Origin: Streptantibioticus parmotrematis
GTDB taxonomy: Bacteria > Actinomycetota > Actinomycetes > Streptomycetales > Streptomycetaceae
NCBI RefSeq assembly: GCF_019890615.1
Contig: NZ_JAINVZ010000001.1
Span: 372,001-436,000 of the forward strand
Direction of reading: 5' to 3'
DNA: 64,000 nucleotides
Position numbers and translations under genes: made by a program. The notes beneath the pieces were generated by a model. It was not told where the DNA came from. It worked only from the letters and a program-made list of their open reading frames with translations, and searched no databases. This document shows, piece after piece, positions 1,902 through 20,381 of this stretch. Position 1 is the first letter of the stretch, and every line of letters starts with the position of its first letter.

Positions 1902-1981
1902 CCGCGCCCCCGACCCGCTCGACCGACCCGCCTGACCGCCCGCCCGCCCGGCGCACCGTCGCGCCGACAGGAGGAGTGATC

Positions 1982-2422: not shown

Positions 2423-3687
2423 ACCGGCGCGTGGCCGTCACCGGCGTCGGCGTCGTCGCACCCGGCGGCGTGGGCGCCCCCGCGTTCTGGGACATGCTGA
2501 CCGCCGGACGCACCGCGACCCGTGGCATCACGCTCTTCGACCCCGCCGGGTTCCGCTCGCGGATCGCCGCCGAATGCGACTTCGACCCCTACGCCCACGG
2601 ACTGTCCGTCGAGGACGTCCAACGCGCCGACCGCTACACGCAGTTCGCGATGGCCGCGACCGACGAGGCGGTGCGCGACAGCGGACTCGACACCGGCGGC
2701 GAGGACCCGTGGCGGCTCGGGGTGTCCCTGGGCACCGCGGTCGGCGGCACGACCCGCCTCGAACACGACTACGTCGCGGTCAGCGACCGCGGGGCGCGCT
2801 GGGACGTCGATCCCGACCGCGCGGGACCCCATCTGCACCGCGCCTTCGCACCCAGCGCCCTCGCCTCGGAAGTGGCCGAACGCGTCGGCGCGCACGGCCC
2901 GGTGCAGACGGTCTCCACCGGCTGCACCTCGGGCCTGGACGCCATCGGCTACGCGTTCCACACCATCGAGGAGGGCCGCGCGGACGTGTGCGTCGCGGGG
3001 GCGTCCGACTCGCCCATCTCGCCCATCACGGTGGCGTGCTTCGACGCCATCAAGGCCACCTCGCCCAACAACGACGACCCCGCCCACGCCTCGCGCCCGT
3101 TCGACGCCCACCGCGACGGGTTCGTCATGGGCGAGGGCGGCGCGGTCCTGGTCCTGGAGGAGTTGGAGCACGCCAGGCGGCGTGGCGCGCGGATCCACTG
3201 CGAGATCAGCGGCTACGCCACGTTCGGCAACGCGTACCACATGACCGGGCTGACCCGGGAGGGCCTGGAGATGTCCGCGGCCATCGACGAGGCGCTGCGG
3301 CACGCCCGGCTCGATCCCACCGACATCGACTACGTCAACGCCCACGGCTCCGGCACCCGGCAGAACGACCGGCACGAGACGGCCGCAGTCAAACGGTCCC
3401 TGGGCGACCACGCCCGCACCACCCCGATGAGTTCCATCAAGTCGATGGTCGGGCACTCGCTCGGTGCCATCGGCGCGATCGAGGTCGTCGCCTGCGTGCT
3501 GGCCCTCGTGGGCGGTGTCGTCCCGCCGACCGCCAACTACGAGACACCCGATCCCGAGTGCGACCTGGACTACGTGCCGCGCCAGGCACGGCCGTCGAGG
3601 CTGCGCAACGTGCTGTCGGTCGGCAGCGGGTTCGGCGGCTTCCAGTCCGCCGTCGTCCTCGGCCGCACCGAGGGGAGCCCGCGATGA
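2419..3687 (+). CDS. Type II PKS ketosynthase alpha (KS-alpha)
   Basis: 422 residues, usual length for the family. Condensing-enzyme fold with the nucleophile in STGCTSG (Cys ~169), and downstream catalytic His/Lys motifs VNAHGSGT and [12 protein letters not shown]. It pairs with the next gene to form the minimal PKS that extends malonyl-ACP to a poly-beta-ketone. Start by ATGA overlap with the cupin gene; its own stop overlaps the KS-beta start. Position and neighbours match WhiE ORFIII. Confidence 0.97.
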
Positions 3688-4901
3688 GCGGCCGGACCGT
3701 GATCACCGGGATCGGCGTCGTCGCGCCGAACGGCATCGGGGCGGACGCCTTCTGGAAGGCCACCAAGGAGGGCGTGAGCGTCCTGGACACCATCGGCCGG
3801 GACGGCTTCGACGGACTGCCGCTGCGGATCGCCGGGCAGGTCCGCGAGTTCGACGCCACCGCGATGGTCGAGGAGCGGTACGTCGTCCAGACCGACCGCT
3901 TCACCCACTTCGCGATGGCCGCCGCCGACCTCGCCCTCGCCCAGTCCGGTCCGCCCGCCCCCGGCGGCTCACCGCTGGACGTCGCCGTGGTCACCGCCGC
4001 CGGTTCCGGAGGCGGCGAGTTCGGGCAGCGGGAACTCCAGAAGCTGTGGGGGCGCGGCTCCCGGCACGTCGGCCCGTACCAGTCCATCGCCTGGTTCTAC
4101 GCGGCCAGCACCGGCCAGATCTCGATCCGCGGCGGCTTCAAGGGCCCCTGCGGGGTGGTCGCCAGCGACGAGGCGGGCGGCCTGGACGCGCTCGCGCACG
4201 CCCGCCGCAGCCTGCTGCGCGGCACCCGCGCGGTGGTGGTCGGCGCGGCGGAGGCACCGCTCGCCCCCTACTCGGGGGTCTGCCAGCTCGGCTACGAGGA
4301 GTTGAGCCTCGTCCCCGATGCCGACCGGGCCTACCTGCCGTTCACCACGAGCGCCCGCGGGTTCGCCCCGGCCGAGGGCGGCGCGATGTTCGTCGTCGAG
4401 GACGAACAGAACGCGGCTGATCGCGGGGCGACTGCCCGCGCCGTCGTCGCCGGGCACGCCGCCACGTTCACCGGTGCCTCGCGCTGGGCGGAGTCCCGCG
4501 AGGGGCTGGCCCGGGCCATCCGCGGCGCCCTGGGCGACGCCCGCCTCGCGCCGAGCGACGTCGACGTGGTCTTCGCCGACGCGCTCGGCACCCCGTGGGC
4601 CGACCGGGCCGAGGCGCTCGCCCTGCGCGACGCCCTCGGCCCGCACGCCTCACGCGTACCGGTGACCGCCCCCAAGACCGGGACCGGGCGGGCCTATTGC
4701 GGCGCGCCGCTGCTGGACACCGCGGCGGCCGTGCTCGCCCTGGAGCACGACACCGTGCCGCCCACCCCGCACGTGCACGAGGTCTGCCACGACATCGACC
4801 TGGTCACCGAGCGGTCGCGGCCGGCCGAACTGCGCACCGCACTCGTCCTCAGCCGCGGGCTCATGGGCTCCAACGCCGCGCTCGTGGTCACCACACCCTG
4901 A
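3684..4901 (+). CDS. Type II PKS chain-length factor (KS-beta)
   Basis: 405 residues, start ATG 3684 in a 4-bp overlap with KS-alpha. It is homologous to KS-alpha but lacks the active-site Cys: the aligned segment reads [11 protein letters not shown], with Glu ~163 in the cysteine position. Most antibiotic-type KS-beta proteins have Gln here (decarboxylates malonyl-ACP and helps prime the chain); Glu is reported in some spore-pigment types, from memory. It dimerises with KS-alpha and sets chain length. The C-terminal motif [19 protein letters not shown] corresponds to the KS catalytic-His region. Confidence 0.95.
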
Positions 4902-4943
4902 CACCACCCCACCGGAAGTCACCGCTCCCCGAAGGAGGAACCC

Positions 4944-5986
<1,043 letters not shown>

Positions 5987-5987
<1 letters not shown>

Positions 5988-7777
5988 TGGATTCCGCTGA
6001 CGAGACGACCACTCCGGCGGCGCGGGCGGCCCCCAGCCACGAGGTGCCGGCATGGGTCCGCTGCGACGGCTGCGAGACGCTGATCTACGGCAAGCGGTTC
6101 GCACGGAGTTTCCGGGTCTGCCCCGAGTGCGGCGACCACGCCCGGCTCACCGCGCGCGACCGCATGGATCACCTGCTCGACGCCGGGTCCGCACGGCTGC
6201 TGGAGACCGAGGGGCCGCCCCACGACCCGCTCGACTTCACCGACACCAAGCCGTACACGGACCGGCTGGCGGAGGCCAGGGACGCCACCGACCTGAGCGA
6301 GGCGGTCCTGTGCGCCCACGGCACCATCCAGGGGCAGCCGGTGGTGGCGGCCGTCATGGACTTCCGGTTCCTCGGCGGCAGCCTCGGCTGCGGCGTGGGC
6401 ACCCGCATCACCCACGCGGCCCGCACCAGCCTGCGGACACGCGTGCCGCTGCTGCTGGTCACCGCGTCCGGCGGGGCCCGGATGCAGGAGGGCGCGCTGT
6501 CGCTGATGCAGATGGCCAAGACCGCACAGGCACTCGCCGACCTCGACGAGGCCGGGATCCTGGTCGTCTCGCTGATCACCGACCCGACCTACGGAGGCGT
6601 GGCCGCCTCGTACGCGACCCTCGCCGACGTCATCCTCGCCGAACCCGGCGCGCGGCTGGGGTTCGCCGGACCCCGGGTCATCGAACAGACCACCCGGGAA
6701 CGGCTCCCGGCCGGATTCCAGACGGCGGAGTTCCTGCTCGGCCACGGCCTCGTCGACGACGTGGTGCCGCGCGCCGCCCTGCGCGGGCGACTGGCCAACC
6801 TGCTGGCGCTGTGCCGGCCGGGAACGGAGCCGGGGCCCGGTCAGCCGGAGTCCGGTCAACCGGCGCCCGGTCAACGGGAGTCCAGCCTTCCGGAGCCCGC
6901 CGACGCCGAGTCCGTGGCCGAACGGCCACCCGGCAAGGACGCGTTGCTGCGGAGTCTGGAGGACCTGCCACGGCGTGAGGCGTGGGAGACGGTCCGGCTC
7001 GCCCGGCACCCCGACCGGCCCACGACGACGCAGTACGCGGAACACCTGCTGGAGGACTTTCACGAACTGCACGGGGACCGCTCCGCCGCGGACTGCCCGG
7101 CGCTCATCGGCGGTCCCGGCAGGCTCGACGGCCATCCGGTGATGCTCATCGGCCACGACAAGGGCGGCCCGCGTCTCGCCGAACGACAACGCTGTCACTT
7201 CGGCATGGCGACCCCCGCGGGCTACCGCAAGGCGGCGCGGTTGATGCGCATGGCGGCCAAACTCGGCCTGCCCGTCGTCGCGTTGATCGACACACCCGGC
7301 GCCAACCCGGGCGCCGACGCCGAATCCGGCGGGCAGGCCGTCGCCATCGCGGAGAACCTGCGGCTGATGTCGCGGCTGCCGGTGCCGATCATCGCGGCGA
7401 TCACCGGCGAGGGCGGCAGCGGCGGAGCGCTCGCCCTGGCCGTCGCCGATCGCGTGCTGATCAGCGTCAACGGCATCTACTCGGTCATCAGCCCGGAAGG
7501 CTGCGCCGCGATCCTGTGGAAGGACGCCGAGGCGGCCCCGGAAGCCGCCAGCGCCCTGCGACTGCACGCCCGCGACCTGCTGCGCCTCGGTGTGGTCGAC
7601 GGGGTCGTGCCGGAGCCCGCGGGCGGCGCGCACCAGGACCACACCGAGGCCGCCGCGCTGCTCGGCAGGGCGCTCACCACGACCCTGCGGGGGCTGGTGC
7701 CCTGGGACCCCGAGGAACTGCTGCGGGCCCGGCACGAACGATTCCACCGCTTCGGACTGGAAGAGACATCACAGTGA
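5987..7777 (+). CDS. Acetyl-CoA carboxylase carboxyltransferase, AccD-AccA fusion
   Basis: 596 residues from ATG 5987, RBS GGAGGAG. N-terminal half is the AccD (beta) part: a four-Cys zinc ribbon (CDGC ... CPEC, residues ~25-47) and crotonase-fold core with [11 protein letters not shown] and [15 protein letters not shown] Pro/Gly/Gln-rich linker (~residues 280-310) of degenerate short repeats leads to the AccA (alpha) part with [19 protein letters not shown] and [18 protein letters not shown]. It transfers CO2 from biotin to acetyl-CoA, making malonyl-CoA. Placement inside the PKS operon points to a dedicated precursor supply. The usual streptomycete housekeeping enzyme has separate AccA2/AccB/AccE components. 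Confidence 0.95.
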
Positions 7778-8352
7778 AGACCAACAGCGAAAAGTGGACC
7801 GAACCGATCGTGCGCGCCCCGCTGGACGAGCACGAACCACGGCCTGAACACCCGCCGCGCCAGGCCGACGTCGAGCGGCTCTGCCACGGCGTCGCCGACC
7901 TCGCGCGCACCTTCGACGAGCCACCGCGCCGGATCAGGCTGCGCAGCGGCACGGCCTGCGTCGAGGTCGAGTGGCCCGCGGCCCCCGCCGCCCCGGCGCC
8001 GCTCCCCACAGGTCCGACGGGACTCGCCTCCGCGGACCGGCAGGAGCACGCCGCGACCGGCCGCACCGCGGACGACGGCGCCGGACGCGACACCACGCAC
8101 TACGTGAACGCGCCCGGCGTGGGCACCTTCTACCACGCCTCCGAGCCCGGCGCGCCCGCGTACGTCTCGGTCGGGGACGTGGTGCGGCCCGGGCAGCCGG
8201 TGGGCGTGCTGGAGGTCATGAAGATGATGAGCACCATCGAGGCGGACGCCGCCGGGCGGGTCGTGGAGGTCCTCGCCAAGGACGCCCAGGGAGTCGAGTA
8301 CGACCAGCACCTGATCGCGCTGGAACCGCTCGCCACGACCCCGGAGGAGTGA
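7774..8352 (+). CDS. Biotin carboxyl carrier protein of acetyl-CoA carboxylase
   Basis: 192 residues from GTG 7774, which overlaps the carboxyltransferase stop (GTGA). N-terminal ~60 residues (helix ...[15 protein letters not shown]... as in AccB), a Pro/Ala-rich flexible linker, then the biotinyl domain with [22 protein letters not shown] and biotinylation site EVMKMM (Lys ~150). Swings carboxybiotin between the biotin carboxylase (next gene) and the AccDA fusion. Confidence 0.95.
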
Positions 8353-8358
8353 ACCGCC

Positions 8359-9717
8359 GTGTTCTCCACCGTACTTGTCGCCAACCGCGGCGAGATCGCC
8401 CTGCGCGTCGCCCGCGCCTGCCGTGAACTGGGCATCCGTACCGTCGCGGTGTACTCCACCGCCGACCGCGACTCCGCGGTGGTCCGGTTCGCCGACGACG
8501 CGGTGCACATCGGGCCCGCACCGGCCAAGGCCGGGTACCTCAACATCCCCGCCGTCGTGGAGGCCGCCCGGCTCGTGGGCGCCGAGGCGCTGCACCCCGG
8601 CTACGGGTTCCTGTCCGAGGATCCCGACTTCGCGGAGGTCTGCGAGGCGGAGGGCATCACCTTCATCGGGCCCTCGCCGCAGGTGATGCAGCGTCTCGGC
8701 GACAAGGCGGCCTGCCGCGCGCTGATGGCCGACGCGGGACTGCCGGTCCTGCCGGGCAGCACCGGCGCCCTGACCTCGGCGGCGGAGGCCAAGGACGTGG
8801 CGCGGCACACCGGTTACCCGGTCATCCTCAAGGCGGTGGCCGGAGGCGGCGGCCGGGGCATGGCCGTCGTCCGCGACCCCGCCGACCTGGTCGCGGCCTA
8901 CCGCGCCACCCGCGCCCAGGCCTTCGCGGTCTTCGCGGACGACCGGCTGTACCTGGAGCGGTACGTGGAGCAGGCCCGCCACGTCGAGGTGCAGGTGCTG
9001 TGCGACCGGCACGGCGGCGCCGTCCACCTGGGAGAGCGGGACTGCTCGGTGCAGCGCCGCCACCAGAAGCTCATCGAGGAGTCCCCGGCCCCCGGACTGA
9101 CCCCCACGCTGCGCGACCGGATGTGCGAGACGGCCGTGCGCGGCGCGCTGGCCGCCGGGTACACCGGCGCGGGCACCTTCGAGTTCGTCCTCACCCCGGA
9201 GGACGACTTCTACCTGATGGAGGTCAACTGCCGCCTCCAGGTGGAGCATCCGGTCACCGAGATGGTCACCGGCATCGACATCGTCAGGGAGCAGATCCTC
9301 ATCGCCGACGGACAGCGCCTGGCCTTCCGTCAGGAAGACGTCGTGCCCAGGGGAGTCGCCATCGAGTGCCGGGTCAACGCGGAGGACCCGGCCCGCGACT
9401 TCGCGCCCGCCCCCGGCACGCTGACCGAGTTCGTCCCGCCGGGCGGCCCGTTCGTACGGGTCGACACCCACGCCTTCGCCGACTGGCAGGTCGGACCGCA
9501 CTACGACTCGCTGCTCGCCAAGGCCGTGGTGTGGGCGCCGGACCGCGAGCAGGCCAGGGCCCGGATGGACCGGGCGCTGGGGGAGTTCAGGATCGACGGC
9601 GCGGGGATGCGCACCACGTCGGAGTTCCTGCGCTCGGTCCTGGCCCATCCGCGGTTCCGCGCCGCCTCCCACACCACGTCCCTGGTCGCGGCGATGGCCG
9701 ACGAGGCGGCGGTCTGA
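8359..9717 (+). CDS. accC: Acetyl-CoA carboxylase, biotin carboxylase subunit
   Basis: 452 residues, the usual stand-alone AccC length. Begins TVLVANRGEIALRVARACRELG; ATP-grasp glycine loop KAVAGGGGRGM (~158-168); metal/catalytic segment MEVNCRLQVEHPVTE, where the usual NTRIQVEH is NCRLQVEH. ATP-dependent carboxylation of biotin on the carrier protein. Six bases after the carrier gene, so same operon. This completes all enzyme functions of acetyl-CoA carboxylase in three consecutive genes. Confidence 0.96.
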   Translation: MFSTVLVANRGEIALRVARACRELGIRTVAVYSTADRDSAVVRFADDAVHIGPAPAKAGYLNIPAVVEAARLVGAEALHPGYGFLSEDPDFAEVCEAEGITFIGPSPQVMQRLGDKAACRALMADAGLPVLPGSTGALTSAAEAKDVARHTGYPVILKAVAGGGGRGMAVVRDPADLVAAYRATRAQAFAVFADDRLYLERYVEQARHVEVQVLCDRHGGAVHLGERDCSVQRRHQKLIEESPAPGLTPTLRDRMCETAVRGALAAGYTGAGTFEFVLTPEDDFYLMEVNCRLQVEHPVTEMVTGIDIVREQILIADGQRLAFRQEDVVPRGVAIECRVNAEDPARDFAPAPGTLTEFVPPGGPFVRVDTHAFADWQVGPHYDSLLAKAVVWAPDREQARARMDRALGEFRIDGAGMRTTSEFLRSVLAHPRFRAASHTTSLVAAMADEAAV

Positions 9718-9755
9718 CACCCGAGGTCCCCACCCACGCGGGACGGCGGGAGAAT

Positions 9756-9771
9756 TGAGTGCGCGTACTCA
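9756..9771. promoter_or_regulatory. 16-bp near-perfect palindrome upstream of the acyltransferase gene
   Basis: TGAGTGCGCGTACTCA reads as an inverted repeat with a single mismatched pair (TGAGT-N6-ACTCA). It lies 38 bp after the accC stop and 67 bp before the GTG of the acyltransferase, in a non-coding interval, so it is placed to be an operator or promoter element for that gene. No regulator is identified. Confidence 0.45.
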
Positions 9772-9838
9772 TGACGCGTGCCGTGGGCCACCGCCACAGT
9801 GGGCGGTCAGCCGACACACCGTGAGGGAAGGGCCGACC

Positions 9839-10501
9839 GTGCTCACTTCAACCGCCGCCGCCGTGGTCCCCGTCTTCGGCAGGCTGACGATCAGCGACGA
9901 GGCGGGTGACGCCCTCGCGTCCGGCGGCATCGTCGCCGCCAACCACACCTCGCTCGCCGACCCCGCCCTCGTGCTTGCCGCCCTGCACCGCGTGGGTGTG
10001 CGGCCTGTCGTGCTCGCCGCCGCCGGGCTGTGGCGGATCCCGCTGCTGGGCCGGATGCTGACCCGCGAGGGCTGCGTCCCCGTCCACCGGGACTCCGGTC
10101 GCGGCGCGATCGCGCTGGAGGCCGCGACCGCGGCGCTCGCCGCCGGGCGGCACATCCTGATCTACGGCGAAGGCAGGCTGCCGCGCCGCCGGGACGCGGG
10201 CGAGGCGGCGCCCGAGACGTTCCGGTCCGGTCTCGCGCGCCTGGCGCTGGAGTCCGGTGCGCCGGTCCTTCCGGTCGGGCAGGCCGGAGCCCGCAGATTC
10301 GCCTCCGGCCACGGCGTCAAGCAGGTCTCCGGTGTGCTGACCGCGCCGCTGCGCCGGCCCAGGGCCCACGTGCACTTCGGCGCGCCGGTGCACCTGACCG
10401 GCAGGGTGCCGGACGCCACCGCCCAGGCGCGCGACGCGGTGACCGCCGCGTGGCGCACGGCCGTCGAGACGCTGGGGGAGCCGGTGGTCCTCGCGGCCTG
10501 A
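9839..10501 (+). CDS. PlsC-like 1-acyl-glycerol-3-phosphate acyltransferase family protein
   Basis: 220 residues from GTG 9839 after GAGGGAAGGG. Acyltransferase motif I NHTSLAD (the HX4D catalytic pair, residues ~40), motif II around GCVPVHRDSGRG, motif III YGEGRLPRR in place of the common FPEGTRS. The family transfers acyl groups from acyl-CoA or ACP to lysophosphatidate or other alcohols at the membrane. It is short and lacks a clear membrane anchor. It lies downstream of the pigment/ACC operon but 121 bp away with a palindrome between, so it may have its own promoter. Whether it serves the pigment pathway (for example acylating the product) or lipid metabolism is open. Confidence 0.82.
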   Translation: MLTSTAAAVVPVFGRLTISDEAGDALASGGIVAANHTSLADPALVLAALHRVGVRPVVLAAAGLWRIPLLGRMLTREGCVPVHRDSGRGAIALEAATAALAAGRHILIYGEGRLPRRRDAGEAAPETFRSGLARLALESGAPVLPVGQAGARRFASGHGVKQVSGVLTAPLRRPRAHVHFGAPVHLTGRVPDATAQARDAVTAAWRTAVETLGEPVVLAA

Positions 10502-10538
10502 GGGGGCGTCACCGGGCGTGGGCCGTGGGCGTCCGGGC

Positions 10539-10559
10539 CATGTGCCTCATCGGCACGTG
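10539..10559 (+). terminator. Small hairpin after the acyltransferase gene
   Basis: CATGTGCC / GGCACGTG arms (8 bp, one G-U) around a 5-base TCATC loop, 38 bases past the acyltransferase stop. No U-tract, as is common for streptomycete terminators. Plausible weak terminator. Confidence 0.4.
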
Positions 10560-10573
10560 AAGCGGCGCCACCA

Positions 10574-10612
10574 CGACATCGGGTGGCAGTTGTAGGGGTT
10601 CCCCCAATGTCG
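10574..10612 (+). promoter_or_regulatory. Inverted repeat in the leader of the peptide gene
   Basis: CGACAT (10574-10579) and ATGTCG (10607-10612) flank a G-rich then C-rich interior (CGGGTGG ... CCCCCA) that can extend the stem. A second tight hairpin, CGGTCGG-AAGA-CCGACCG, follows at 10642-10659. Both lie between the acyltransferase and the 33-residue peptide ORF, in what would be its promoter or 5' leader. They may be an operator, a leader structure, or chance pairing in GC-rich DNA. Confidence 0.35.
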
Positions 10613-10733
10613 CGATTCCGCGTGAGTGCCAGGCTGCTGTCCGGTCGGAAGACCGACCGCAGCGCGGTAACGCGCAATCGCGTCACGGACGTCCCACCCG
10701 GGGCGTCCGCGTGTCCTCAGGACGGAGAACCCG

Positions 10734-10835
10734 ATGAAGAAGATCGCCATCCGCAAGCCCGGTTCCGTGCGTCTGACCTCCGCCGCCCACGCGCTCTACG
10801 GCGGCTCCTGCGGCATCATCATCGCCAAGGCCTGA
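10734..10835 (+). CDS. Candidate RiPP or signalling-peptide precursor (33 residues)
   Basis: Short ORF, ATG 10734 preceded by GGAG at 10724-10727, ending TGA 10833-10835. The N-terminal half is strongly basic (MKKIAIRKPG, then VRLTS), like a leader; the C-terminal half is small and hydrophobic with one Cys: ALYGGSCGIIIAKA. A double glycine precedes the Ser-Cys, a typical processing site, which would release SCGIIIAKA. It is followed by a hairpin and then a PqqD-like/M50-type metalloprotease gene, the usual setting of a ribosomally made, processed peptide. I do not recognise a family. The coding call rests on RBS, position and context; modification and cleavage are inference. Confidence 0.7.
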   Translation: MKKIAIRKPGSVRLTSAAHALYGGSCGIIIAKA

Positions 10836-10857
10836 CGCGTCGGCGCGTTACCGCGAA

Positions 10858-10889
10858 GGAGAGCCCGGTCCACGGGGGCCGGGCTCTCC
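10858..10889 (+). terminator. Strong hairpin between peptide gene and metalloprotease gene
   Basis: Perfect 11-bp arms GGAGAGCCCGG / CCGGGCTCTCC around a 10-base loop, 22 bases after the peptide stop and 48 bases before the next GTG. This is a partial terminator or stabilising 3' stem of the kind that lets a precursor peptide be made in excess over its processing proteins. Confidence 0.72.
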
Positions 10890-10937
10890 TCCCGCCCCCA
10901 CGGTCCACCCCGCCGAACCGACTGGAGCGCACCGGCC

Positions 10938-12254
10938 GTGTCCACCGTGATCCCAGGCGACGAACTCCCCGGCGAGCCGGTACCGTCCGGCGAGGCCGCA
11001 CCCGTCGGCGCGTCACCCGGCGACGTGCCGACGGGCGGCGCCCCGGCGCCCGTACCGCCCGGCGCGCCCGTCCGCCTGTACCCGCTGACCTATCTGGACG
11101 AGGGCGACGAGGTCACCGTGGGCCGCCCCGACATCGACTCCTACGCGGTGCTGCCCGCGGACGGCGCGGCACTGCTGCGCCGGCTCGGCGACGGTGTTCC
11201 GCCCGCTCAGGCCGCCGCGTGGTACCGGCAGACCTACGGCGAGCCCGTCGACATCGACGACTTCGTGGACACGCTGCGGGAGCTGGACTTCGTCCGGGAG
11301 ACCGGCGACGACGCGGAACCGGCGCCCCGGCCGGTGCGATGGCGGGCCCTGGGCGCCGCCGTCTTCTCACCCGTCGGCGCGATCTGCCTCGCCGCGCTGC
11401 TGACGGCATGGGTGGTGGCCATGGTCCGCTCACCGGCGCTGGTCCCCACGTACCACAACCTGTTCTTCACCCGGTACATGACCGTCCTCGAACTGGTCAC
11501 GTTCGTCTGCCAGTTCCCGCTGATCCTGCTGCACGAGGCCGCCCACGCGCTCGCCGGGCGACGGCTCGGGCTGCGCTCCCGGCTGTCCATCGGGCGGCGC
11601 CTGTACTACGTGGTGTTCCAGACCACGATGGACGGCCTGGTGTCGGTGCCGCGCCGCAAACGCTACGTGCCGATGCTCGCCGGAATCCTCACCGACCTCG
11701 CCGTCCTCGCCGCGCTCACCCTGGGCGCTGCGGCCACCGAAGGGCCGGACGGCACCCCCTCGACGACCGGACGCATCCTGCTGGCGCTCGCCTACATGAC
11801 GCTGCTGCGGGTGTCGTGGCAACTGTGGTTCTATCTGGAGACCGATCTGTACTACGTCGTCGTCACCGTGCTGGACTGCGTCGACCTGCAGGCCACCGCC
11901 CGCGACGTGCTGCGGCAACGGTTCAACCGGATACTGGGCCGCCCGCACACCGTGCCGGACGAGACACGGTGGCATCCGCGCGACCTGTCGGTCTCGCGCT
12001 GGTACTCCTGGCTGCTGCTGGTCGGCTGGACCGTCTCGATCGGCACGCTGCTCGCGGGCGTGCTGCCGGTCGCCGTACGGGTGCTGTCCACCGTCCTGGG
12101 ACGCCTGGTCACCTCCCACACGCACGGCACCGCCGGCCTGCTGGACAGCGTGGGCTTCCTCGTCATCAACATCGCCCAACTCGCCGTCATCGCCCACCTG
12201 GTGCGACGCGAACGCCACGCGCGCCGGACCCGGCCGTCCACCGTCCCGTCCTGA
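10938..12254 (+). CDS. PqqD-like domain / M50-type membrane zinc metalloprotease
   Basis: 438 residues from GTG 10938. A disordered Pro/Gly/Ala-rich start (1-45) leads to a PqqD/RRE-like winged-helix region (~46-120: GDEVTVGRPDIDSYAVLPADGAALL ... DIDDFVDTLRELDFV pattern). Then several membrane segments (~140-160, 182-198, 225-260, 285-310, 350-420). Zinc motif HEAAH (199-203) in a hydrophobic segment, and a second acidic ligand candidate Asp303 in ETDLYYVV, the equivalent of the S2P-type DG motif. It resembles 'putative peptide zinc metalloprotease' proteins found with RiPP precursors. Expected role: recognise the 33-residue peptide through the PqqD-like part and cleave it in or at the membrane. 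Confidence 0.85.
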   Translation: MSTVIPGDELPGEPVPSGEAAPVGASPGDVPTGGAPAPVPPGAPVRLYPLTYLDEGDEVTVGRPDIDSYAVLPADGAALLRRLGDGVPPAQAAAWYRQTYGEPVDIDDFVDTLRELDFVRETGDDAEPAPRPVRWRALGAAVFSPVGAICLAALLTAWVVAMVRSPALVPTYHNLFFTRYMTVLELVTFVCQFPLILLHEAAHALAGRRLGLRSRLSIGRRLYYVVFQTTMDGLVSVPRRKRYVPMLAGILTDLAVLAALTLGAAATEGPDGTPSTTGRILLALAYMTLLRVSWQLWFYLETDLYYVVVTVLDCVDLQATARDVLRQRFNRILGRPHTVPDETRWHPRDLSVSRWYSWLLLVGWTVSIGTLLAGVLPVAVRVLSTVLGRLVTSHTHGTAGLLDSVGFLVINIAQLAVIAHLVRRERHARRTRPSTVPS

Positions 12255-12268
12255 CCGGAGGAACACCC

Positions 12269-14470
12269 ATGACCGTGACGCCCCGGCACCAGTGGATCGA
12301 GGCCCCGCGCCGGTCCCAGCGGGCCAGGACCGCCGAACTGGCGCGAACCACCCAGGAGTTGACGCCGGTCGTCGACGCACACCGGCGGCTGCGCGGCCCC
12401 TACACGGCGGCGGGCACCATCGCGCGGGCCCTGGTTCCCCTGATCCTGGAAACGGCACCCGGCACGGTGACCGACCACACCATCGAACTGCTCACCGTGG
12501 CACCCGAGTTGCGCGGCACCGTGCCCGCCACCCGGGAGACGCTCACCTCGCTCGCCGTGCCCGAGGAGCGCACCCGCTTCTACTCCCGGCTGCGCACCCT
12601 GCGGATCGCGCACGGCCTCGCCGAGTTCCTGCGCGATCACGCCGCGAACGCCCCGGGCGGCCCGTACGGCCTGACCGTCGAGAACGTGCACGCCGCCGAC
12701 GCGACCGACCGCGAACTGCTGGCCGTCCTGCTGCGCAGGATCGACCCCGCGCTGCTGCGCCTGACCCTGTGCGGCGCCCCCGACGGCGCGGAGGCCGCGG
12801 AAGGCACCGAGTCGCTCGCCGAGGCCCTGGAACGCCACGCCGAACGGGTCGAGCCCCTGCCGCTCAGCGAGGCCGACACGCTCGTGCTCTCCGGTTCGCG
12901 GGACCTCGCGTGGGAGTACATCGCCTCCGACTGCACCGACGACACCCCTGCGCTGAAGGCCGCCTACCACGCGCTGCCGCTTCCCGAACGCGCCGCGCTG
13001 CACGACCGCAGGGCGGCGGAACTGGAGGCCACCGGCGAGGCGTCCCTCCTGCTCGGCGCCGTCCCGTACCACCGCGAACACGGCACCGATCCGGCCGGCG
13101 TCGGAGTGCGCGCCCTGCGCACCGGGCTCGACACCTGCATCGACACCGGCTTCTACGAGGCCACCGTCGACTTCGGCAGACGCGGGCGCGCGCTGGTCGA
13201 CCAGGACCGCGACCGCGACCAGTGGTGGGCGTTCACCACCAAGATGACCACCTCGCTCGCGGCGCTGTCGCGCCCCGAGGAGGCCGAGGCGCTCTACGAC
13301 GAGGCCCGGGCCCTGTGCGCCGACCCGGCCGTCCACCTCCAGGCCGCCTACGCCACCGCCATGCTCTACACCCGCCACCACGGCACCGAGCGGCGCGACC
13401 ACCAGACCGCGCTCGGCTGGATCAACGAGGCCATCGCCCTCTCCACCCTGCTGCCCGACGAGCGGCAACGCGCCTTCCACACCGTCTTCCACCAGAACGG
13501 CCTGGCCCTCATCGAGAACCACCTCGGCCGCCCCGAGGAGGCGTTGCGCCTGGTCACCGAGGGACTGGCGCGCCTGGAGCGGGAGTTGGGCCCGGACGAG
13601 CACCGGCTGCACCGCTCCGTGCTGCGCTACAACCGCGCCCAGGTGTACGCGGGCCTCGGCCGCCTCGACGAGGCACTCGACGACTTCACCGACGTCATCG
13701 CCGAGGACCCCAACTACCCCGAATACCACTTCGACCGGGCGGGCGTGCTGCGGCGGCTCGGACGCGACGACGAGGCGCTGACGGAGTACGAGACCGCGAT
13801 GCGGCTCAGCCCGCCCTTCCCCGAGCTGTACTACAACCGCGGTGACCTCAGAGCGGCCCGTGGGAACGTCGACGGGGCGCTCGCCGACTTCGCCTACGTC
13901 CTCGACATCGAGCCGCGCTACGTGGACGCCCACGTCAACCTGGCCGGGCTGCTGGTGGAGATCGGCGACACCCGGTGGGCGGCCGAAGTGGTCGCCGCCG
14001 GGCTCGCGGTGGACCCCGCCAACGCCTACCTGCTGTGCCTGCTGGGACGCCTGGAGTCGGAAGCGGGCCACGCCGACCGGGCCCGCGCCGCGCTGGACGC
14101 CGCCGTAGCGGCCGACCCGCGCTGTGCCGAGGCCCTCGCCACCCGCGCGGTCCTGTCCTTCGAGACCGGCGACCTTCCGGGAGCCGTCGAGGACTTCAGC
14201 CGTTCACTGGAGATCGCGCAGGATCCGGTCGTGCTCTTCAACCGCGGCAGCGTCCACGAAGAACTGGGCCGCTGGAAGGAGGCCGCCGCCGACTTCGACC
14301 GCGTCGTGGAACTCGACCCGGAGGGGCCGGACGGCTGGCTGCGGCGCGGCGCGTGCCGGTTGCGGCTCGGCGACGAACCCGGCGGCCGGTCCGACCTGCG
14401 GCGCTTCACCGCGCTGGCGCCCGAGCGGGCCCCCGAGGCGGTGGCGCTCGGCGCCCCGGCGGGCGGCTGA
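12269..14470 (+). CDS. TPR protein with degenerate ATPase-like N-terminal region
   Basis: 733 residues, ATG 12269 with GGAGGAAC 6 bases upstream and only 14 bases after the protease stop. Residues ~1-320 resemble the ATPase part of LAL/STAND regulators: VENVHAADATDRELL looks like Walker B and the following region, followed by LLRLTLCGAP; no Walker A P-loop and no DNA-binding HTH are present. Residues ~330-730 hold about eight TPR units (for example YNRAQVYAGLGRLDEALDDFTDVIAEDPN). It may bind the peptide or the protease, or act as a TPR sensor. No enzymatic function can be assigned. Confidence 0.8.
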   Translation: MTVTPRHQWIEAPRRSQRARTAELARTTQELTPVVDAHRRLRGPYTAAGTIARALVPLILETAPGTVTDHTIELLTVAPELRGTVPATRETLTSLAVPEERTRFYSRLRTLRIAHGLAEFLRDHAANAPGGPYGLTVENVHAADATDRELLAVLLRRIDPALLRLTLCGAPDGAEAAEGTESLAEALERHAERVEPLPLSEADTLVLSGSRDLAWEYIASDCTDDTPALKAAYHALPLPERAALHDRRAAELEATGEASLLLGAVPYHREHGTDPAGVGVRALRTGLDTCIDTGFYEATVDFGRRGRALVDQDRDRDQWWAFTTKMTTSLAALSRPEEAEALYDEARALCADPAVHLQAAYATAMLYTRHHGTERRDHQTALGWINEAIALSTLLPDERQRAFHTVFHQNGLALIENHLGRPEEALRLVTEGLARLERELGPDEHRLHRSVLRYNRAQVYAGLGRLDEALDDFTDVIAEDPNYPEYHFDRAGVLRRLGRDDEALTEYETAMRLSPPFPELYYNRGDLRAARGNVDGALADFAYVLDIEPRYVDAHVNLAGLLVEIGDTRWAAEVVAAGLAVDPANAYLLCLLGRLESEAGHADRARAALDAAVAADPRCAEALATRAVLSFETGDLPGAVEDFSRSLEIAQDPVVLFNRGSVHEELGRWKEAAADFDRVVELDPEGPDGWLRRGACRLRLGDEPGGRSDLRRFTALAPERAPEAVALGAPAGG

Positions 14471-14477
14471 CGGGGGA

Positions 14478-14516
14478 GCGCCCGCGCCGGGGGCCTGCCG
14501 GGTCCGGCGCGGGCGC
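14478..14516 (+). terminator. Terminator closing the peptide/protease/TPR operon
   Basis: Perfect 13-bp arms GCGCCCGCGCCGG / CCGGCGCGGGCGC with a 13-base loop, 7 bases after the TPR gene stop. It separates that operon from the LAL regulator downstream. Confidence 0.85.
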
Positions 14517-14628
14517 GGTATGACGGTGGGAGGGACCGGCGCCGCCTCGGGGCGGCGGACGGGGCCGGGCGGGGCGACCCGCCACGGGTGTCGTGCCCCG
14601 GGAGGAGTCCCGCGGCTTCGGGGGAGCC

Positions 14629-17484
14629 ATGGAACGAGTCGACCCAGGCGGACGTACGGCTCATGCGCACCGGGCACGGGCGGCCGGGCCGCGCGCGGCC
14701 TTCCCGGAGCGGGCCCTGCCCGTCCCGATGACCGGCCGGGACCGCGAACTCGCCCGCGTGCTAGAGGCGTTGACCGGCACCGACTCGGGAGGGACACCGT
14801 TCGTCGAGGTCACCGGCGACCCGGGGACCGGCAAGAGCCTTCTGCTCACCGAGGCGTGCGAACGCCTCGCGGCCCGGGGCACGGTCGTCATCCGCTCCGA
14901 CGCCGCGCGCGTCACCGGCGCCGTGCTGTCCGTGCTGCCCGCCCGCAGCCGCTCCGGACGGCGGCTCCTGCTCGTCCTGGACGACCTGCACCGCGCCACC
15001 CCCGAAGCGTTGGACGCGTTGCGCCGCCTGCGCCCGGCCGTGCTGTGCGCGTACCGCGCCCGCCGCACGCCGCCCGGCCTGGCCCGGCTCCTGCGGGAAC
15101 TGCCGGCCGACCGCGAACGGGTGGGCGTCGACCTCGGCCCGCTCGACCCGGCCGACGCCCGGCGGCTGACAGGCCTGCCCGTGGACGGCGAGGACGCGGC
15201 CTGGTGCGCCCGGGCCGGCGGGGGAGTGCCGCGCCACGTCATCTGGGTGGCGCGCAGCCCCCGCCTGCCCTCGGCGGCACGACGCCGCGCGGGGGACGGC
15301 TTCACCGACCTGCTGCCGCTGCCCGCGCACCCGGTCGTGGACGCCGAACTCGACGCCCTGGACGGCGTGTTGGGGCGGGTCGCCCGTGCGGCCGCGGTGG
15401 TCGGCGACCCCTTCGCGGCCGAACCCACGGCCGCCGTCGCGGGCGTGGACGCCGCGACGTTCCTCGCCGCCGTCGACGAACTGGTCCGGCGCGATCTCGT
15501 ACGACCCGACACCGAGGGCTGCGGTCTGCTGCGCTTCCGGCACCCCCTGGTACGCGCCCGCCTCTACCAGCGGATGCCTGTCGCCGACCGCCTCGTGGCC
15601 CACCGGCACGCCGCCACCCTGCTCGCCGCGACCGGCACGCCCGCCGCGCGCGCCCGCCATCTGTCCCGGTGTGCGCCGGCCACCGATGCCGAGGCCGCGG
15701 CGGCGCTGGCGCGGGCGGCGGCGCGCGACCTGGACCGGTACCCGGCCCGGGCGGTGGTGTGGGCGGGCGAGGCGCTACGACGCCTGCCCGCACGGGCGGC
15801 CCGCGAGCGGAGCCGGACGCTGGTGCTGCTCGCGGAGGCGCTGGGCTCCGACGGACGCCTGCGCGAGGCGCGGACGGTGCTGGGGACCGCGGCCGCCGCG
15901 GCGGCCGACCCCGGGCAACGAGCCGCCGTGGCACGCCTGAGCGCGCGCTACGCCCGCCTGCTGGGGCGGCACGCCGAGGCGGCCGACGCGCTGGGCCGGG
16001 AACCCACGGGCGGCGGGGATCCGGACTCCGCCGTGCGCGACCCCTTGACCCGGGCGGGCCTGCGGTGGGAGGCGGCCGTCGGCGCGCTGGCCGCGGGGGA
16101 CACGGCCACGGCCCGGCGGTCGGCCACGCAGTCATGGGACTTCCCGCGCCCTCAGGCCCCGGACTCGCGGCTGCGCGGTGCGGTACTGCGGGCGGCGACG
16201 GAGGCGTTCGATCACGGCCCACGCGTGGCCGATCACCAACTACTGGGCGTCGTGCGGGAGTTCGACGCCCTGCCCGATCCGGCGCTGGTGCCGATGCTGG
16301 ACGCCGTGATCCTCACCGCCGCGGCGCGCCGCGCGGTCGGTCCCACGACGGAGGCCGCGCGGCTCGCCGACCGCGCGGTGGGAATCGCCCGGCACGCGGG
16401 TCAACGCGGCGTGCTGCCGGACGCGTTACTGGTCAAGGCCGCCGCACTCCTGGACCTCGGCGCGCTCGACGCGGCCGTCGCCTGCTGCGGTGACGCGGCG
16501 CGCCTGGCCCGGGACACCGGGGCCGCGGAACACACCGGTGGGGCGCTCGCGCTGCTGGCGGAGTGCGAACGCCACGGCTCGGGGAACGGCCCCGGCGCCG
16601 CGTACCAGCAGGCGCGGCGCGCGCTGGAGGGCCGCCCGGCCTCCCGGCTCACCGTCCTGGCGCGCGCCCGGCTGTGGTCGGTCTCGCCCGCGGGGCGGGC
16701 CTGCGGTCTCGTGGCGATCGCAGGCGGCGAGGGCCTGCCGGGGCTCGACCGCTGTGAACGCCCGCGCTGGATGCGGGTGCTGGCCGAGGCGGAACTGCGC
16801 GGCGGGGACGCCGAGGCCGCCCGGGTCTGGGCGCGCCGGGCCGCGGAGGCCGCCGCCGACCTCGGCTCTCCCGTGCAGACGGCGCACGCGCTGGCGGCGG
16901 GGGCCGCCGTCGCGCTGGCCCGCGGCGGCTTCCCGGCGGCCGGGGGCGCGGCGCGTTCGGCGGCGGCGGCGTTCGGGCGGGCGGGGCTGGCGCTGGAGGA
17001 GGGCGCGGCGCTGCTGTCGCTGGCCCGCGCGCTCGCGGGGGAGTGGCGGTGGGCGCTGGTGCCGCCGGTGCTGGCCAGGGTCCGCGGCATCGCCGCCGAG
17101 TGCGGCTCCCGGCGGCTGCACGGGCTGGCGGTGGCGGAACAGCGCAGGGTGATGTCGCTGGCCGGGCGTGTGCCGGAGGGCGCGCGGACGTTCGCCGACC
17201 CGCCCGGCGGCGGCACCGAAGCGGTACCCGCGACGAGCGCCGGGGAGGCGGTGGGAGCCCTGCCGCCGCGCGGTGGACCGCCCGTCCTCACCCGCCGCGA
17301 GTCGCAGATCACCGGACTGGTCGCCAGCGGCCTGCCGAACAGTCAGGTGGCGGCCCGACTCGGAGTCAACGCCAAGACCGTCGAGGCCCATCTCACCCGG
17401 ATCTACCGCAAGTTGGGCGTCACCCGGCGCTCGTCCCTGGTCTCGCTGCTCACTGCGGGGACACCCGGCGGGCCCGAATCCTAG
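14629..17484 (+). CDS. LAL-type LuxR-family transcriptional regulator (AAA ATPase + HTH)
   Basis: 951 residues from ATG 14629 (GGAGGAG at 14601-14607; GTG 14593 is the alternative start). Walker A GDPGTGKS at ~63-70, Walker B VLDDLHRA, a long helical TPR-like middle, and a C-terminal LuxR HTH (~885-940: LTRRESQITGLVASGLPNSQ, then VNAKTVEAHL). Large ATP-binding LuxR proteins are often pathway-specific activators that sense a ligand. It lies just after the peptide operon terminator, so the peptide system is one candidate target; the pigment cluster is another. Its end faces the next LAL gene 20 bp away. Confidence 0.93.
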   Translation: MERVDPGGRTAHAHRARAAGPRAAFPERALPVPMTGRDRELARVLEALTGTDSGGTPFVEVTGDPGTGKSLLLTEACERLAARGTVVIRSDAARVTGAVLSVLPARSRSGRRLLLVLDDLHRATPEALDALRRLRPAVLCAYRARRTPPGLARLLRELPADRERVGVDLGPLDPADARRLTGLPVDGEDAAWCARAGGGVPRHVIWVARSPRLPSAARRRAGDGFTDLLPLPAHPVVDAELDALDGVLGRVARAAAVVGDPFAAEPTAAVAGVDAATFLAAVDELVRRDLVRPDTEGCGLLRFRHPLVRARLYQRMPVADRLVAHRHAATLLAATGTPAARARHLSRCAPATDAEAAAALARAAARDLDRYPARAVVWAGEALRRLPARAARERSRTLVLLAEALGSDGRLREARTVLGTAAAAAADPGQRAAVARLSARYARLLGRHAEAADALGREPTGGGDPDSAVRDPLTRAGLRWEAAVGALAAGDTATARRSATQSWDFPRPQAPDSRLRGAVLRAATEAFDHGPRVADHQLLGVVREFDALPDPALVPMLDAVILTAAARRAVGPTTEAARLADRAVGIARHAGQRGVLPDALLVKAAALLDLGALDAAVACCGDAARLARDTGAAEHTGGALALLAECERHGSGNGPGAAYQQARRALEGRPASRLTVLARARLWSVSPAGRACGLVAIAGGEGLPGLDRCERPRWMRVLAEAELRGGDAEAARVWARRAAEAAADLGSPVQTAHALAAGAAVALARGGFPAAGGAARSAAAAFGRAGLALEEGAALLSLARALAGEWRWALVPPVLARVRGIAAECGSRRLHGLAVAEQRRVMSLAGRVPEGARTFADPPGGGTEAVPATSAGEAVGALPPRGGPPVLTRRESQITGLVASGLPNSQVAARLGVNAKTVEAHLTRIYRKLGVTRRSSLVSLLTAGTPGGPES

Positions 17485-17504
17485 GGACGTCACCCCGAGC
17501 CGCC

Positions 17505-20381
17505 TCACGGCGTGCGCGCGGCGCCTGGCGCTGTCGTCGTGCCGTCGCCGGAGATCTCGTGCGTGCCCATCGCCACGAGAGCGGAGCGAGACGTCACCCC
17601 GAGCTTGCGGTAGGCCCGGGTCAGATGCGCCTCGACCGCCTTGACGGTCACGTGCAGCCGGTCCGCCACCTGCGCGTTGGTCAGACCTGAGCGCACCAGC
17701 GTGACCACGTCGTGCTCTCGGTGCGTCAGGCCCGCCGGGCGCACCCGCTCGCCCGGCGGGGTCGCGGCGGCGGGCGGGCGGACGTCCGCCGTGCTCGACG
17801 GGCTCAACTGGCCGTAGCGGTACGCCGCCCGGTCGGCCAGGCTCCGGGCGCCCCCGGCGTCGCCGATGGTCCAGGCCCGCGACAGCTCCGTCCGCGCCGC
17901 CCCCACCCTTCCCGAGGCGGCCCGCGCCTCGGCGGCCAGCAGTCGGCAGCGCGCCTCCTCCAGCGGCTGGCCGCAGCGCTCGAACGTCGCCGCCGCCCAC
18001 CGCGCGACCGAGGCCGCGCCGACCGGATCGCCGGTGCGCAGCAGCAGTTCCGCCCGTGCGGCCAGCGCGTGCCCCCGCTGGGCGGGCAGCGCGACAGCGG
18101 CCGCCCGCGTCAGCGCCTCCCGTACCAGGGGCTCCGCCTCGTGCGGCCGTCCGAGCAGCATCAGCGCCTCCGCCTGCACGGCGAGCCACATCGGCAGGGC
18201 GCACACGTCGACCCCCGGCATTCCCGGGCCACCGCCCGCGTCGTCCAGGATCCGCAACGCCTCCAGCGCGTCGCCCTCCAGCAGCCTGACCCGGGCCAGG
18301 ATCCGCCGGGCGACCCCCGTCCACCAGCCACGGCCCCGGCCGCCCAGCCGCACCGCCTGCTCCGCCACCGCAGCCGCCCCCGCGGGACCGTCCCGCCACA
18401 GCAGCGCCCCGGCCCGCATCGACAACGCGAACGCCAGCATCGGATCACTGCGCAGCAGGCGGCTGCGCTCCTCCGCCTCGTCGGCGGCGCGCAGGGCCGC
18501 GCGCACGTCACCGAGGCGCAGGACGGCGAGGATCTGGCCGACGAGCAGATACGTCGACAGATGACTCTGCCCGGTGCGTTCCGCGGCCCGCAGCCCCCGG
18601 GTGAAGTGTTCACTCGCCCGCCCGGGCTGCTCCAACAGCACCTGCGCCCAACCGAGTTGACCCAGACAGTCCAGCAGCGGCGCAAGCTCCTCGTCGGAGC
18701 GGCCGGACAGCAGCCCGGTGGCCTGCCGCGCGGCTTCAAGGGCGTGCGGAACGCTGCCCCGGCAGGCCTCGACGAGGGCCCGGGTGCCCAGTGCGAGCAG
18801 CCGCGCCTCGTCGGCGACGGATCCGTCGGCGGCCGCCCGCACCGCCCGCCGCACGTGGCCGACCGCCTGGTGCCGTCCCGCCAGCACCTCGCAGGACGCC
18901 CGCAGCGCCAGCACCGACGGCAGGTCGGGGCCACCGCGCCGCGACTCCTCGTGGAGCACGGCGGCACCCTCCTCGTACTTGCCCTGCATCCGGTCGACCA
19001 GCGACAGCAGCCGCAACGCTGCCGCCCGATGCGGTGCATCGGACGGCAGCGCCGCCAGCAGATCGTGCAGGATGCGCCGCCCGCGTTCGAGGTCACCGGC
19101 CGCCGCGCAGGCGTGCGCCAGCAGCAGCGACAGCTCGCACCGCGCCTCGGACTCCTCTTCCGGGAGCAGGGGCAGCGCGCGGCTGAGCCAGTGCGCGGCC
19201 GACGCCGGAACGCTGGTGAGCACCGAACGGGCCGCCCGGACCAGTACCGCCGCCGCCTCCCGGTCGCCGGGCGCGGCGCTGCGCGCGACGTGCGGGGCGA
19301 GCGCGGTCGCGGGCGCTCCGCGTTCCGCCAGCGCGGCGACGATCCGCCGATGGGTGACCAGCCGCCAGCCGGGGCCCGCGTCCTGGTAGACGGCGTGACG
19401 CAGCACGGGGTGCCGGAAGCACAGCAGCCGGCCGCCGGAGGGCTCTGGGCGCACCAGGTCGCGTTCCCGCAGCCCGTCCAGCAGCGCCGCCGCGTCGGGC
19501 GCCTCGGCGTGGGCGAGCCCGCTCACGAACTCCGGGTCGAAGGGGTCGCCGACGACGGCGGCCGTGCGCAGCACCGCCAGCGGCGCCGGGTCGAGCGCGC
19601 GGGCCTCCGCGAGCAGCACCTGCGCGACCGCGTCGGCCACGTCGCCGGGCGGGCCGTCCGCCTCTCCGTGCCCGTCCGCGGCCCGCAGGCCCTCGGGCCC
19701 CGCGGTCATCAGGGCCCGGGCGTACAGCGGATTGCCCTCGCAGCGGGCGTGCAGCCCGGGCGGGCAGAAGGCGCCGAGGAAGCGGGCGAGCGCGGCCACG
19801 TCCTCCTCCGACAGCGGCCGGGGCACGATGCGCTCCCGGTGGAAGGCGGCGGAGGTCCCGGCCAGGGCGTCGACCAGCAACTCGCCCGTCTGGCGCGGCC
19901 GGTGGGCCACAGCGATCATCAACGGCCGGGCGGGCGTGCCGCGCAGGATGTGCCGGAGCAGTTCCAGCGAGCCGTTGTCCGCCCAGTGCAGGTCGTCGAG
20001 GACGACGACCACCGGGCCGCCGCCACCGAGTCCGTCGAGCCGTTCCGCCATCTCCCGGTGGAACCGGCCACGTTCGAGCCCGGGAAGCGAGCCCGGGGGC
20101 GGTGGGGACGCCTCGCCGTCGAGGAACGCGGCGAACGCCGAGAAAGGACGGGCCCGTTCGTACTCGCTGCACCGCCCGGCGACCACGGTGGCCCCGCCGC
20201 ACCGGGCGATCCTGGCGAGTTCGTCCAGCAGCCGGGTCTTGCCCATCCCGGGCTCACCGGTGATCTCCATCAGGACCGACCGACCCTCGCCCAGGCAGGC
20301 GAACGCCCGCTGCAACCGGCGCAGTTCGCTCCCGCGCCCGACGAGACCGTGCGCGTCCGCCGTACGTCTTCGGCCACTCAT
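17505..20381 (-). CDS. LAL-type LuxR-family transcriptional regulator (second copy, convergent)
   Basis: 958 residues. Walker A TGEPGMGKT (41-49), Walker B VVVLDDLHWAD, signature-like FDPEFVSGLA region, a long helical-repeat middle, C-terminal HTH (~880-935: LTHREHDVVTLVRSGLTNAQ, then LHVTVKAVEAHL). Similar in length and domain order to the upstream LAL gene, with the same YRKLGVT end of the HTH, so the pair may descend from one duplication, though the sequences are now far apart. Start ATG 20381; upstream is non-coding. Confidence 0.93.
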   Translation of the reverse strand: MSGRRRTADAHGLVGRGSELRRLQRAFACLGEGRSVLMEITGEPGMGKTRLLDELARIARCGGATVVAGRCSEYERARPFSAFAAFLDGEASPPPPGSLPGLERGRFHREMAERLDGLGGGGPVVVVLDDLHWADNGSLELLRHILRGTPARPLMIAVAHRPRQTGELLVDALAGTSAAFHRERIVPRPLSEEDVAALARFLGAFCPPGLHARCEGNPLYARALMTAGPEGLRAADGHGEADGPPGDVADAVAQVLLAEARALDPAPLAVLRTAAVVGDPFDPEFVSGLAHAEAPDAAALLDGLRERDLVRPEPSGGRLLCFRHPVLRHAVYQDAGPGWRLVTHRRIVAALAERGAPATALAPHVARSAAPGDREAAAVLVRAARSVLTSVPASAAHWLSRALPLLPEEESEARCELSLLLAHACAAAGDLERGRRILHDLLAALPSDAPHRAAALRLLSLVDRMQGKYEEGAAVLHEESRRGGPDLPSVLALRASCEVLAGRHQAVGHVRRAVRAAADGSVADEARLLALGTRALVEACRGSVPHALEAARQATGLLSGRSDEELAPLLDCLGQLGWAQVLLEQPGRASEHFTRGLRAAERTGQSHLSTYLLVGQILAVLRLGDVRAALRAADEAEERSRLLRSDPMLAFALSMRAGALLWRDGPAGAAAVAEQAVRLGGRGRGWWTGVARRILARVRLLEGDALEALRILDDAGGGPGMPGVDVCALPMWLAVQAEALMLLGRPHEAEPLVREALTRAAAVALPAQRGHALAARAELLLRTGDPVGAASVARWAAATFERCGQPLEEARCRLLAAEARAASGRVGAARTELSRAWTIGDAGGARSLADRAAYRYGQLSPSSTADVRPPAAATPPGERVRPAGLTHREHDVVTLVRSGLTNAQVADRLHVTVKAVEAHLTRAYRKLGVTSRSALVAMGTHEISGDGTTTAPGAARTP

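Follow-up and report, generated by a model that had tools for sequence, protein, structure and literature searches.

Within the 64,000 nucleotides of Streptantibioticus parmotrematis DNA analysed here (the window; contig NZ_JAINVZ010000001.1, positions 372,001 to 436,000) lies an operon of a short peptide gene, a membrane protease and a large tetratricopeptide repeat (TPR) protein. It looks like an apparently undescribed maturation module for small processed peptides of soil bacteria, of the type that serves ribosomally synthesised and post-translationally modified peptides (RiPPs). The trio is real and conserved: a constant leader and a variable tail, a rule of Cys and Tyr in that tail, predicted folds and linkages to flavoenzymes can all be observed. 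We consider it probable that the trio is a RiPP-type maturation module, present in the window in a minimal form without a tailoring gene. An undescribed operon of this kind had been proposed from sequence alone, and the proposal gains from the leader/tail split, the protease fold and the conservation of the short open reading frame (ORF). Peptide, hairpin, protease and TPR protein were all found in their predicted places, and no paper on the trio was among the matches listed in the literature searched, which takes in few subscription papers.

A conserved trio with a constant leader and a variable tail

Homologues of the peptide occur at 28 places in 25 of 150 genomes, its own included, and variation among 72 distinct leader DNAs falls mostly on the third codon position (entropy 0.52, 0.30 and 0.97 bits at the three positions). 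On both grounds the ORF behaves as a coding gene, beyond chance. In the window and 26 further loci that were fetched, protease and TPR protein stand 3' of the peptide in 27 of 27 cases (in L054 both are fragmentary); other gene clusters in these loci have at most nine members each. When one genome per species was searched with the protease alignment, 144 relatives came up; the best 80 were kept and are called the named loci. All 80 hold protease and TPR protein (79 by clustering; L081, left out of gene calling, by tblastn), and in 79 a leader peptide lies upstream. Their hosts, 79 Actinobacteria and one member of the Chloroflexota, include Streptomyces, Kitasatospora, Lentzea, Streptosporangium, Actinoplanes, Nocardia and Micromonospora. 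The trio in the Chloroflexota is that of L081, in Ktedonobacter robiniae, where the tail ends in LYGICIY; its presence there suggests transfer between phyla.

In a family sample, 103 of 394 genomes gave a protease match of any strength. Full-length protease scores are bimodal (E <1e-100 versus >1e-74). At loci with a close protease the leader is present in 93 of 94 and a TPR match in all 94, a set that counts in our own genome as well as repeats of named loci. The 31 loci whose only M50 relatives are distant, two of them cut by contig ends, gave neither a leader nor a TPR match. A phylum-wide sample matched in 5 of 396 genomes: our own, a typical trio with a distant second copy lacking a TPR gene, a trio with another leader, a distant protease without a TPR gene, and a weak match. 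A leader check on TPR-centred loci (L274-L293) succeeded in 9 of 20, but it missed the window's own locus, L276, so the flanks are too short for the figure to carry weight. It had been stated beforehand that the idea would suffer if the short ORF were not conserved beside orthologous proteases, or if the protease always occurred without it; the ORF is kept beside them in 27/27, 79/80 and 93/94 loci.

The window peptide is basic (isoelectric point 10.6), ends in GGSCGIIIAKA and has GGAG upstream of its ORF; no Pfam or NCBIfam family matches it. Among the 65 distinct peptides of the named set, positions 2-4, 7, 8, 10 and 12-15 are near-fixed, residue 6 is Val or Ile, and Ala18 (58 peptides) and Tyr22 (56) stand out in an otherwise variable tail. 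The constant features overall are residues 1-15, Ala18, Tyr22 and a Cys at a varying place. In a RiPP locus one expects a short precursor whose leader is conserved and whose core varies, next to genes for its processing, and the trio loci show this arrangement. Cys and Tyr occur together in the tail (residue 18 onward) in 118 of 118 distinct peptides of the named loci and L176-L239, counted after exclusion of leader matches that scored below 20 bits in the named loci or below 15 bits in L176-L239, and with the peptides of L146-L175 outside the count. When the pooled residues of 111 distinct tails were shuffled, both residues were found in a mean of 58 and a maximum of 73 tails (2000 runs). Since the hidden Markov model that detects the peptides was built on residues 1-16 of the leader and the tail lies outside it, the count is not circular. 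Some loci have two to four precursor copies (L057, L177, L185). In L114 and L196, both scored as misses and both on contigs of 6273 bases, protease and TPR protein are present and the leader is degraded; their tail is RLTTACYYSCSQA. A cut after the double Gly to a 9-residue product, as originally envisaged, is unsupported because the Gly pair before the Cys is poorly conserved (Gly23 in 17 and Gly24 in 9 of the 65 peptides).

The hairpin behind the peptide gene is also a recurring feature. Of 62 nonredundant named loci, 41 have a strong one after the stop codon of the peptide (p 0.05 versus mononucleotide shuffles), with a median stem of 12 versus 5.3 in the shuffles. The stems are unrelated in sequence, so it is the form that is kept.

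Predicted folds and a possible course of maturation

The AlphaFold2 model of the protease is confident (mean predicted local distance difference test, pLDDT, 88.8) and joins an RRE-like part to one that resembles a site-2 protease. In this predicted model residues 45-122 match the leader-bound RiPP recognition element (RRE) of lasso peptide B1 protein 5v1u (Z 10.2, root-mean-square deviation (rmsd) 2.3 over 78 residues) and residues 34-121 match PqqD 5sxy (Z 7.9), while residues 183-384 match RseP 9j82 (Z 8.6, rmsd 5.5 over 167) and residues 133-377 match SpoIVFB 8vjm (Z 7.9). H199, E200, H203 and D303 are invariant in the 49 rows of the protease alignment, and we take D303 to play the zinc-ligand-type role of the distal Asp of site-2 proteases. 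An HExxH motif and a distal Asp in a membrane-helix domain, the mark of these proteases, are thus both there, and the model also holds an RRE domain, a frequent but not universal feature of RiPP cluster proteins. Pfam matches PqqD in 13 of 49 members (E ≤0.5, best 8e-4) and M50 weakly in 19 of 49 (E ≤0.5); for the window protein itself the M50 match is weak only and NCBIfam gives none. Model and fold matches agree with the fusion of a PqqD/RRE-like domain to an M50-type site that had been read from the sequence.

The TPR protein is modelled with a mean pLDDT of 95.2 as a long superhelix that resembles many peptide-binding TPR proteins: LGN (Z 23.3), OGT (Z 20.5) and the Rap-peptide complex 8rte (Z 19.0), with MamA also ranking above Rap. 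Whole-protein fold searches were filled by the TPR repeats, and the Pfam and NCBIfam matches of the window protein are mostly to generic TPR families. Among the 25 of 78 families listed, Pfam TPR families match 46 of 46 members and AAA_16 matches 38 of 46 at E ≤0.5 (best 5e-6; window protein 0.08); a Walker A motif is found in 0 of 46. The first 250 residues may therefore be an ATPase domain of the STAND type whose P-loop has been lost, the least tested part of our analysis. Compared by profile, this domain and the neighbouring LuxR/STAND regulator showed no significant similarity, and weak six-frame matches (E about 1e-6 to 1e-8) map to a single stretch of the domain, within long ORFs. No helix-turn-helix (HTH) family is among the 23 that match the window protein. 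Asn410, Asn455, Asn523 and Asn658 are invariant in the 46 rows of the TPR alignment, which we liken to the 'Asn ladder' of OGT.

Taken together, the parts suggest a course of events. The hairpin behind the peptide gene would probably leave the peptide in excess over its enzymes. To judge by the fold, the constant leader may dock on the RRE domain that the protease carries. The TPR protein would hold the variable tail; the conserved Asn residues along its superhelix would fit a grip on the peptide backbone, whatever the side chains. Where they are present, a flavin mononucleotide (FMN) enzyme or a PF02441 flavoprotein could modify the Cys/Tyr tail, as their linkage to tail type indicates. The site-2 protease would cut near the conserved Ala18, and a short Cys/Tyr product would be released at the membrane, where it might serve as a signal or as an antibiotic.

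Flavoenzyme linkages and the weighing of other readings

The original prediction saw no modification enzyme. This holds for the 13 window neighbours that were scanned; across the family the picture differs. After 142 loci had been collapsed to 110 at 90% protease identity (L232 was skipped for lack of a TPR gene call), a same-strand gene was found within 300 bases after the TPR gene in 61 loci. Among the 25 of 40 families listed, 47 of these 61 genes code for FMN enzymes: 37 flavin reductase-like proteins, 6 of old-yellow-enzyme type and 4 NADPH-dependent FMN reductases. The control of 61 upstream genes, taken from 105 without a formal rule, contains 2 flavin reductases and 3 PF02441 flavoproteins among the 25 of 77 families listed. 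Thirteen of the flavin reductase genes share an identical overlap with the TPR stop, a few bases long. Presence of an FMN enzyme, scored at 105 of the 110 loci (those with an unknown next gene without an FMN match were dropped) and recorded at 52, tracks the position of the Cys: one is found at 48 of the 64 loci whose Cys precedes or adjoins the Tyr and at 4 of the 41 whose Cys comes later (Fisher 2e-11), figures that flatter the association since the limit between early and late was set after viewing the list. In trait simulations on the protease tree 0 of 2000 runs reached the observed association, in either direction. A PF02441 flavoprotein, which we take to belong to the family of LanD/EpiD and of other decarboxylases as well, is found in 5 of 205 searched loci (L049, L228, L229, L233 and L234; three by Pfam, two by similarity), and in all five its gene is divergent from a peptide ending in Cys. 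As a side observation, the peptides of L223, L225 and L226 end in GTWPWC or GTWPFC, and in place of PF02441 a GNAT gene lies just upstream on the same strand (identified by Pfam in L223 and by like sequence in L225 and L226). The FMN and PF02441 linkages, which are correlations, are the best evidence that the tail serves as a substrate for chemistry.

Several observations weigh against this picture. No modifying enzyme was found among the 13 window neighbours, and any exporter or immunity gene stays confined to 8 or fewer of the 80 named loci. Apart from protease, TPR protein, flavin reductase and two BTAD clusters, indeed, every gene cluster keeps within this number. An FMN enzyme is missing from 53 of the 105 scored loci; 16 of the 64 early-Cys loci have none and 4 of the 41 late-Cys loci have one. 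L223, L225, L226 and L232 have a C-terminal Cys and no PF02441 gene, and the five loci with the gene share a similar leader and so may stand for few independent events. L167 holds, besides three intact precursor copies, an extra leader-like ORF whose tail lacks Cys and Tyr, perhaps a decaying copy. In the outlying relative L272, on a plasmid of Streptomyces sp. NBC_01450, the trio lies among transposases with the leader MRKISVRRTEPIKVTS, a tail without Cys or Tyr and a protease 40.6% identical. Inspection by eye shows no membrane segment in the peptide, which is unusual for the substrate of a site-2 protease. Finally, plain Foldseek returned nothing for the protease at E ≤0.001 (best 0.13), so that its assignment leans also on the four invariant residues.

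The trio could also be a quorum-sensing system; an autoinducer-like signal had been suggested as a possible product from the sequence alone. SHP/Rgg and other RRNPP signalling systems combine a short peptide, M50-type processing and a TPR protein, the parts of our trio, and by analogy the protease would trim a pheromone; back inside the cell, this would bind to the TPR protein, which in turn would act on a neighbouring regulator. The Rap-peptide complex among the fold matches, the LuxR-type regulators beside the window operon and the SARP/BTAD-type genes in 28 of 80 (cluster 3) and 14 of 80 (cluster 4) named loci, one member of each confirmed by Pfam, are in line with this. The fold matches are unspecific, however, with LGN, OGT and MamA outscoring Rap, and regulator types vary from locus to locus. 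The TPR protein differs from its RRNPP counterparts in its STAND-like N-terminal domain and, in the window, in the lack of an HTH match, and the RRE on the protease and the linked flavoenzymes point to biosynthesis; we consider a system of this kind unlikely. Maturation might also need proteolysis alone, perhaps with oxidation to a disulfide or a bound metal, the flavoenzymes being functionally unrelated neighbours. The single Cys of many tails, the 37 of 41 late-Cys loci without an FMN enzyme and the 13 window neighbours, with no modifying enzyme among them, would agree with it. This seems to us quite improbable, as the place after the TPR gene is taken again and again by one of three FMN families, 13 flavin reductase genes have a uniform overlap with the TPR stop and the PF02441 gene goes with a C-terminal Cys.

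We therefore retain the RiPP-type maturation module as the probable reading. More tentatively, the trio could represent a new RiPP class, with its defining chemistry on the tail Cys and Tyr; the P-loop-less STAND-TPR protein would be a maturation factor, obligatory and new, and FMN enzymes would join in for certain tails. Confidence in both is slightly lower because the Cys limit was chosen post hoc, L167 holds an exception and the Foldseek scores are weak.

Known systems, genomic setting and meaning

The closest published system is that of the daptides, in which MpaP, an intramembrane site-2 protease that carries an RRE at its N-terminus, removes the leader (PMC10036551); the likeness extends to short precursor ORFs beside such a fusion in Actinomycetota (PMC10036551). 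The trio falls outside the daptides by precursor motif and enzyme set: ELExMEAP is absent from the 65 distinct peptides, one of which ends in Thr, and the daptide set of aminotransferase, dehydrogenase, methyltransferase and ABC transporter was not found among the 13 window neighbours or the recurrent clusters of the 80 loci; the TPR protein and the Cys/Tyr tails are the trio's own. In pearlins (TglG, TmoG) and epipeptides (EpeP) membrane M50 proteases likewise process RiPP precursors (PMC10885120), but neither a PEARL nor a radical SAM enzyme is among the 13 window neighbours. TMcins, whose leader is removed in the membrane by the site-2-clan protease TmcP, have a precursor with a transmembrane helix, unlike the trio peptides as judged by eye, and the text available from this preprint (PMC13252029) does not mention an RRE on TmcP such as the trio protease carries. 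The portions seen of PMC7470986 and PMC12710340 mention neither M50 nor TPR, and those of PMC12707348 and PMC12424672 describe other TPR proteins in RiPP clusters. As far as these sources go, none of the known systems has this leader, Cys/Tyr tail or TPR partner. No lanthionine synthetase was found among the 13 neighbours within 798-20315, the rest of the genome being outside the search.

Features of the operon in the window
Feature	Position	Strand	Basis and remarks
Precursor peptide, 33 aa	10734..10835	+	ORF, homologues, coding pattern; near-constant leader to about residue 16, variable tail with Cys and Tyr from 18 to 33
11-bp hairpin just 3' of peptide stop	10858..10889	+	Perfect stem, -31 kcal/mol; possible attenuator
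RRE-site-2 protease (M50-like), membrane protein, 438 aa, GTG start	10938..12254	+	Model, fold matches, invariant residues
RRE (PqqD-like) domain, protease residues 42-122	11061..11303	+	Fold match; PqqD Pfam matches
HEAAH zinc site, protease residues 199-203	11532..11546	+	Motif, alignment
TPR protein, 733 aa: putative N-terminal STAND-ATPase-like domain without P-loop (weak evidence), then TPR superhelix	12269..14470	+	Model, Pfam
11-bp GC hairpin 3' of TPR gene	14480..14514	+	No T run; possible operon end

The trio is flanked by a type II polyketide cluster on one side and by a convergent pair of LuxR-type regulators on the other. The former (798-10501) comprises a SchA/CurD protein, a cupin, two ketosynthases, a carrier protein, cyclases, carboxylase subunits and an acyltransferase; the latter are large AAA_16/LuxR proteins of one cluster (14728-17484, plus strand; 17505-20315, minus strand), which adjoins the trio in L035, L055 and L076 too. 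The nearest named relative is that of Streptomyces sp. ICBB 8177 (L055; protease identity 95%), whose neighbourhood matches the window, judged from the sizes of genes, and L035 (G001) has the window's neighbour genes in common by clustering. Of the strong terminator once assumed at the operon end the GC hairpin is present; it lacks a T run, and a consensus scan of the operon found neither an intrinsic terminator nor a sigma-70-type promoter. PADLOC gave no match, and Rfam none within 10400-14700.

The distant M50 group (L240-L271, L265 apart, and L273; 31 loci, about 30% identical) has neither TPR partner nor leader match. In most listed loci a protein of about 370-400 residues lies directly upstream, which makes a second uncharacterised pair; in L273, on the annotated plasmid NZ_CP108732.1, this protein is annotated as ThiF family and a BTAD regulator is also present. 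On the minus strand of L143 the 25-residue peptide MKKLVVRKLEPIKTSANADCVPAAA lies just upstream of a distant M50 gene (9580-8297) with no TPR gene found after it, possibly a two-gene form.

The trio is a compact and widespread precursor-protease-TPR module without a recognised modifying enzyme, for which reason genome mining that starts from such enzymes would probably pass it over. With more than 100 distinct tails, the Cys and Tyr rule and exchangeable flavoenzymes, this three-gene system lends itself to tests of the chemistry and of what the TPR protein does.

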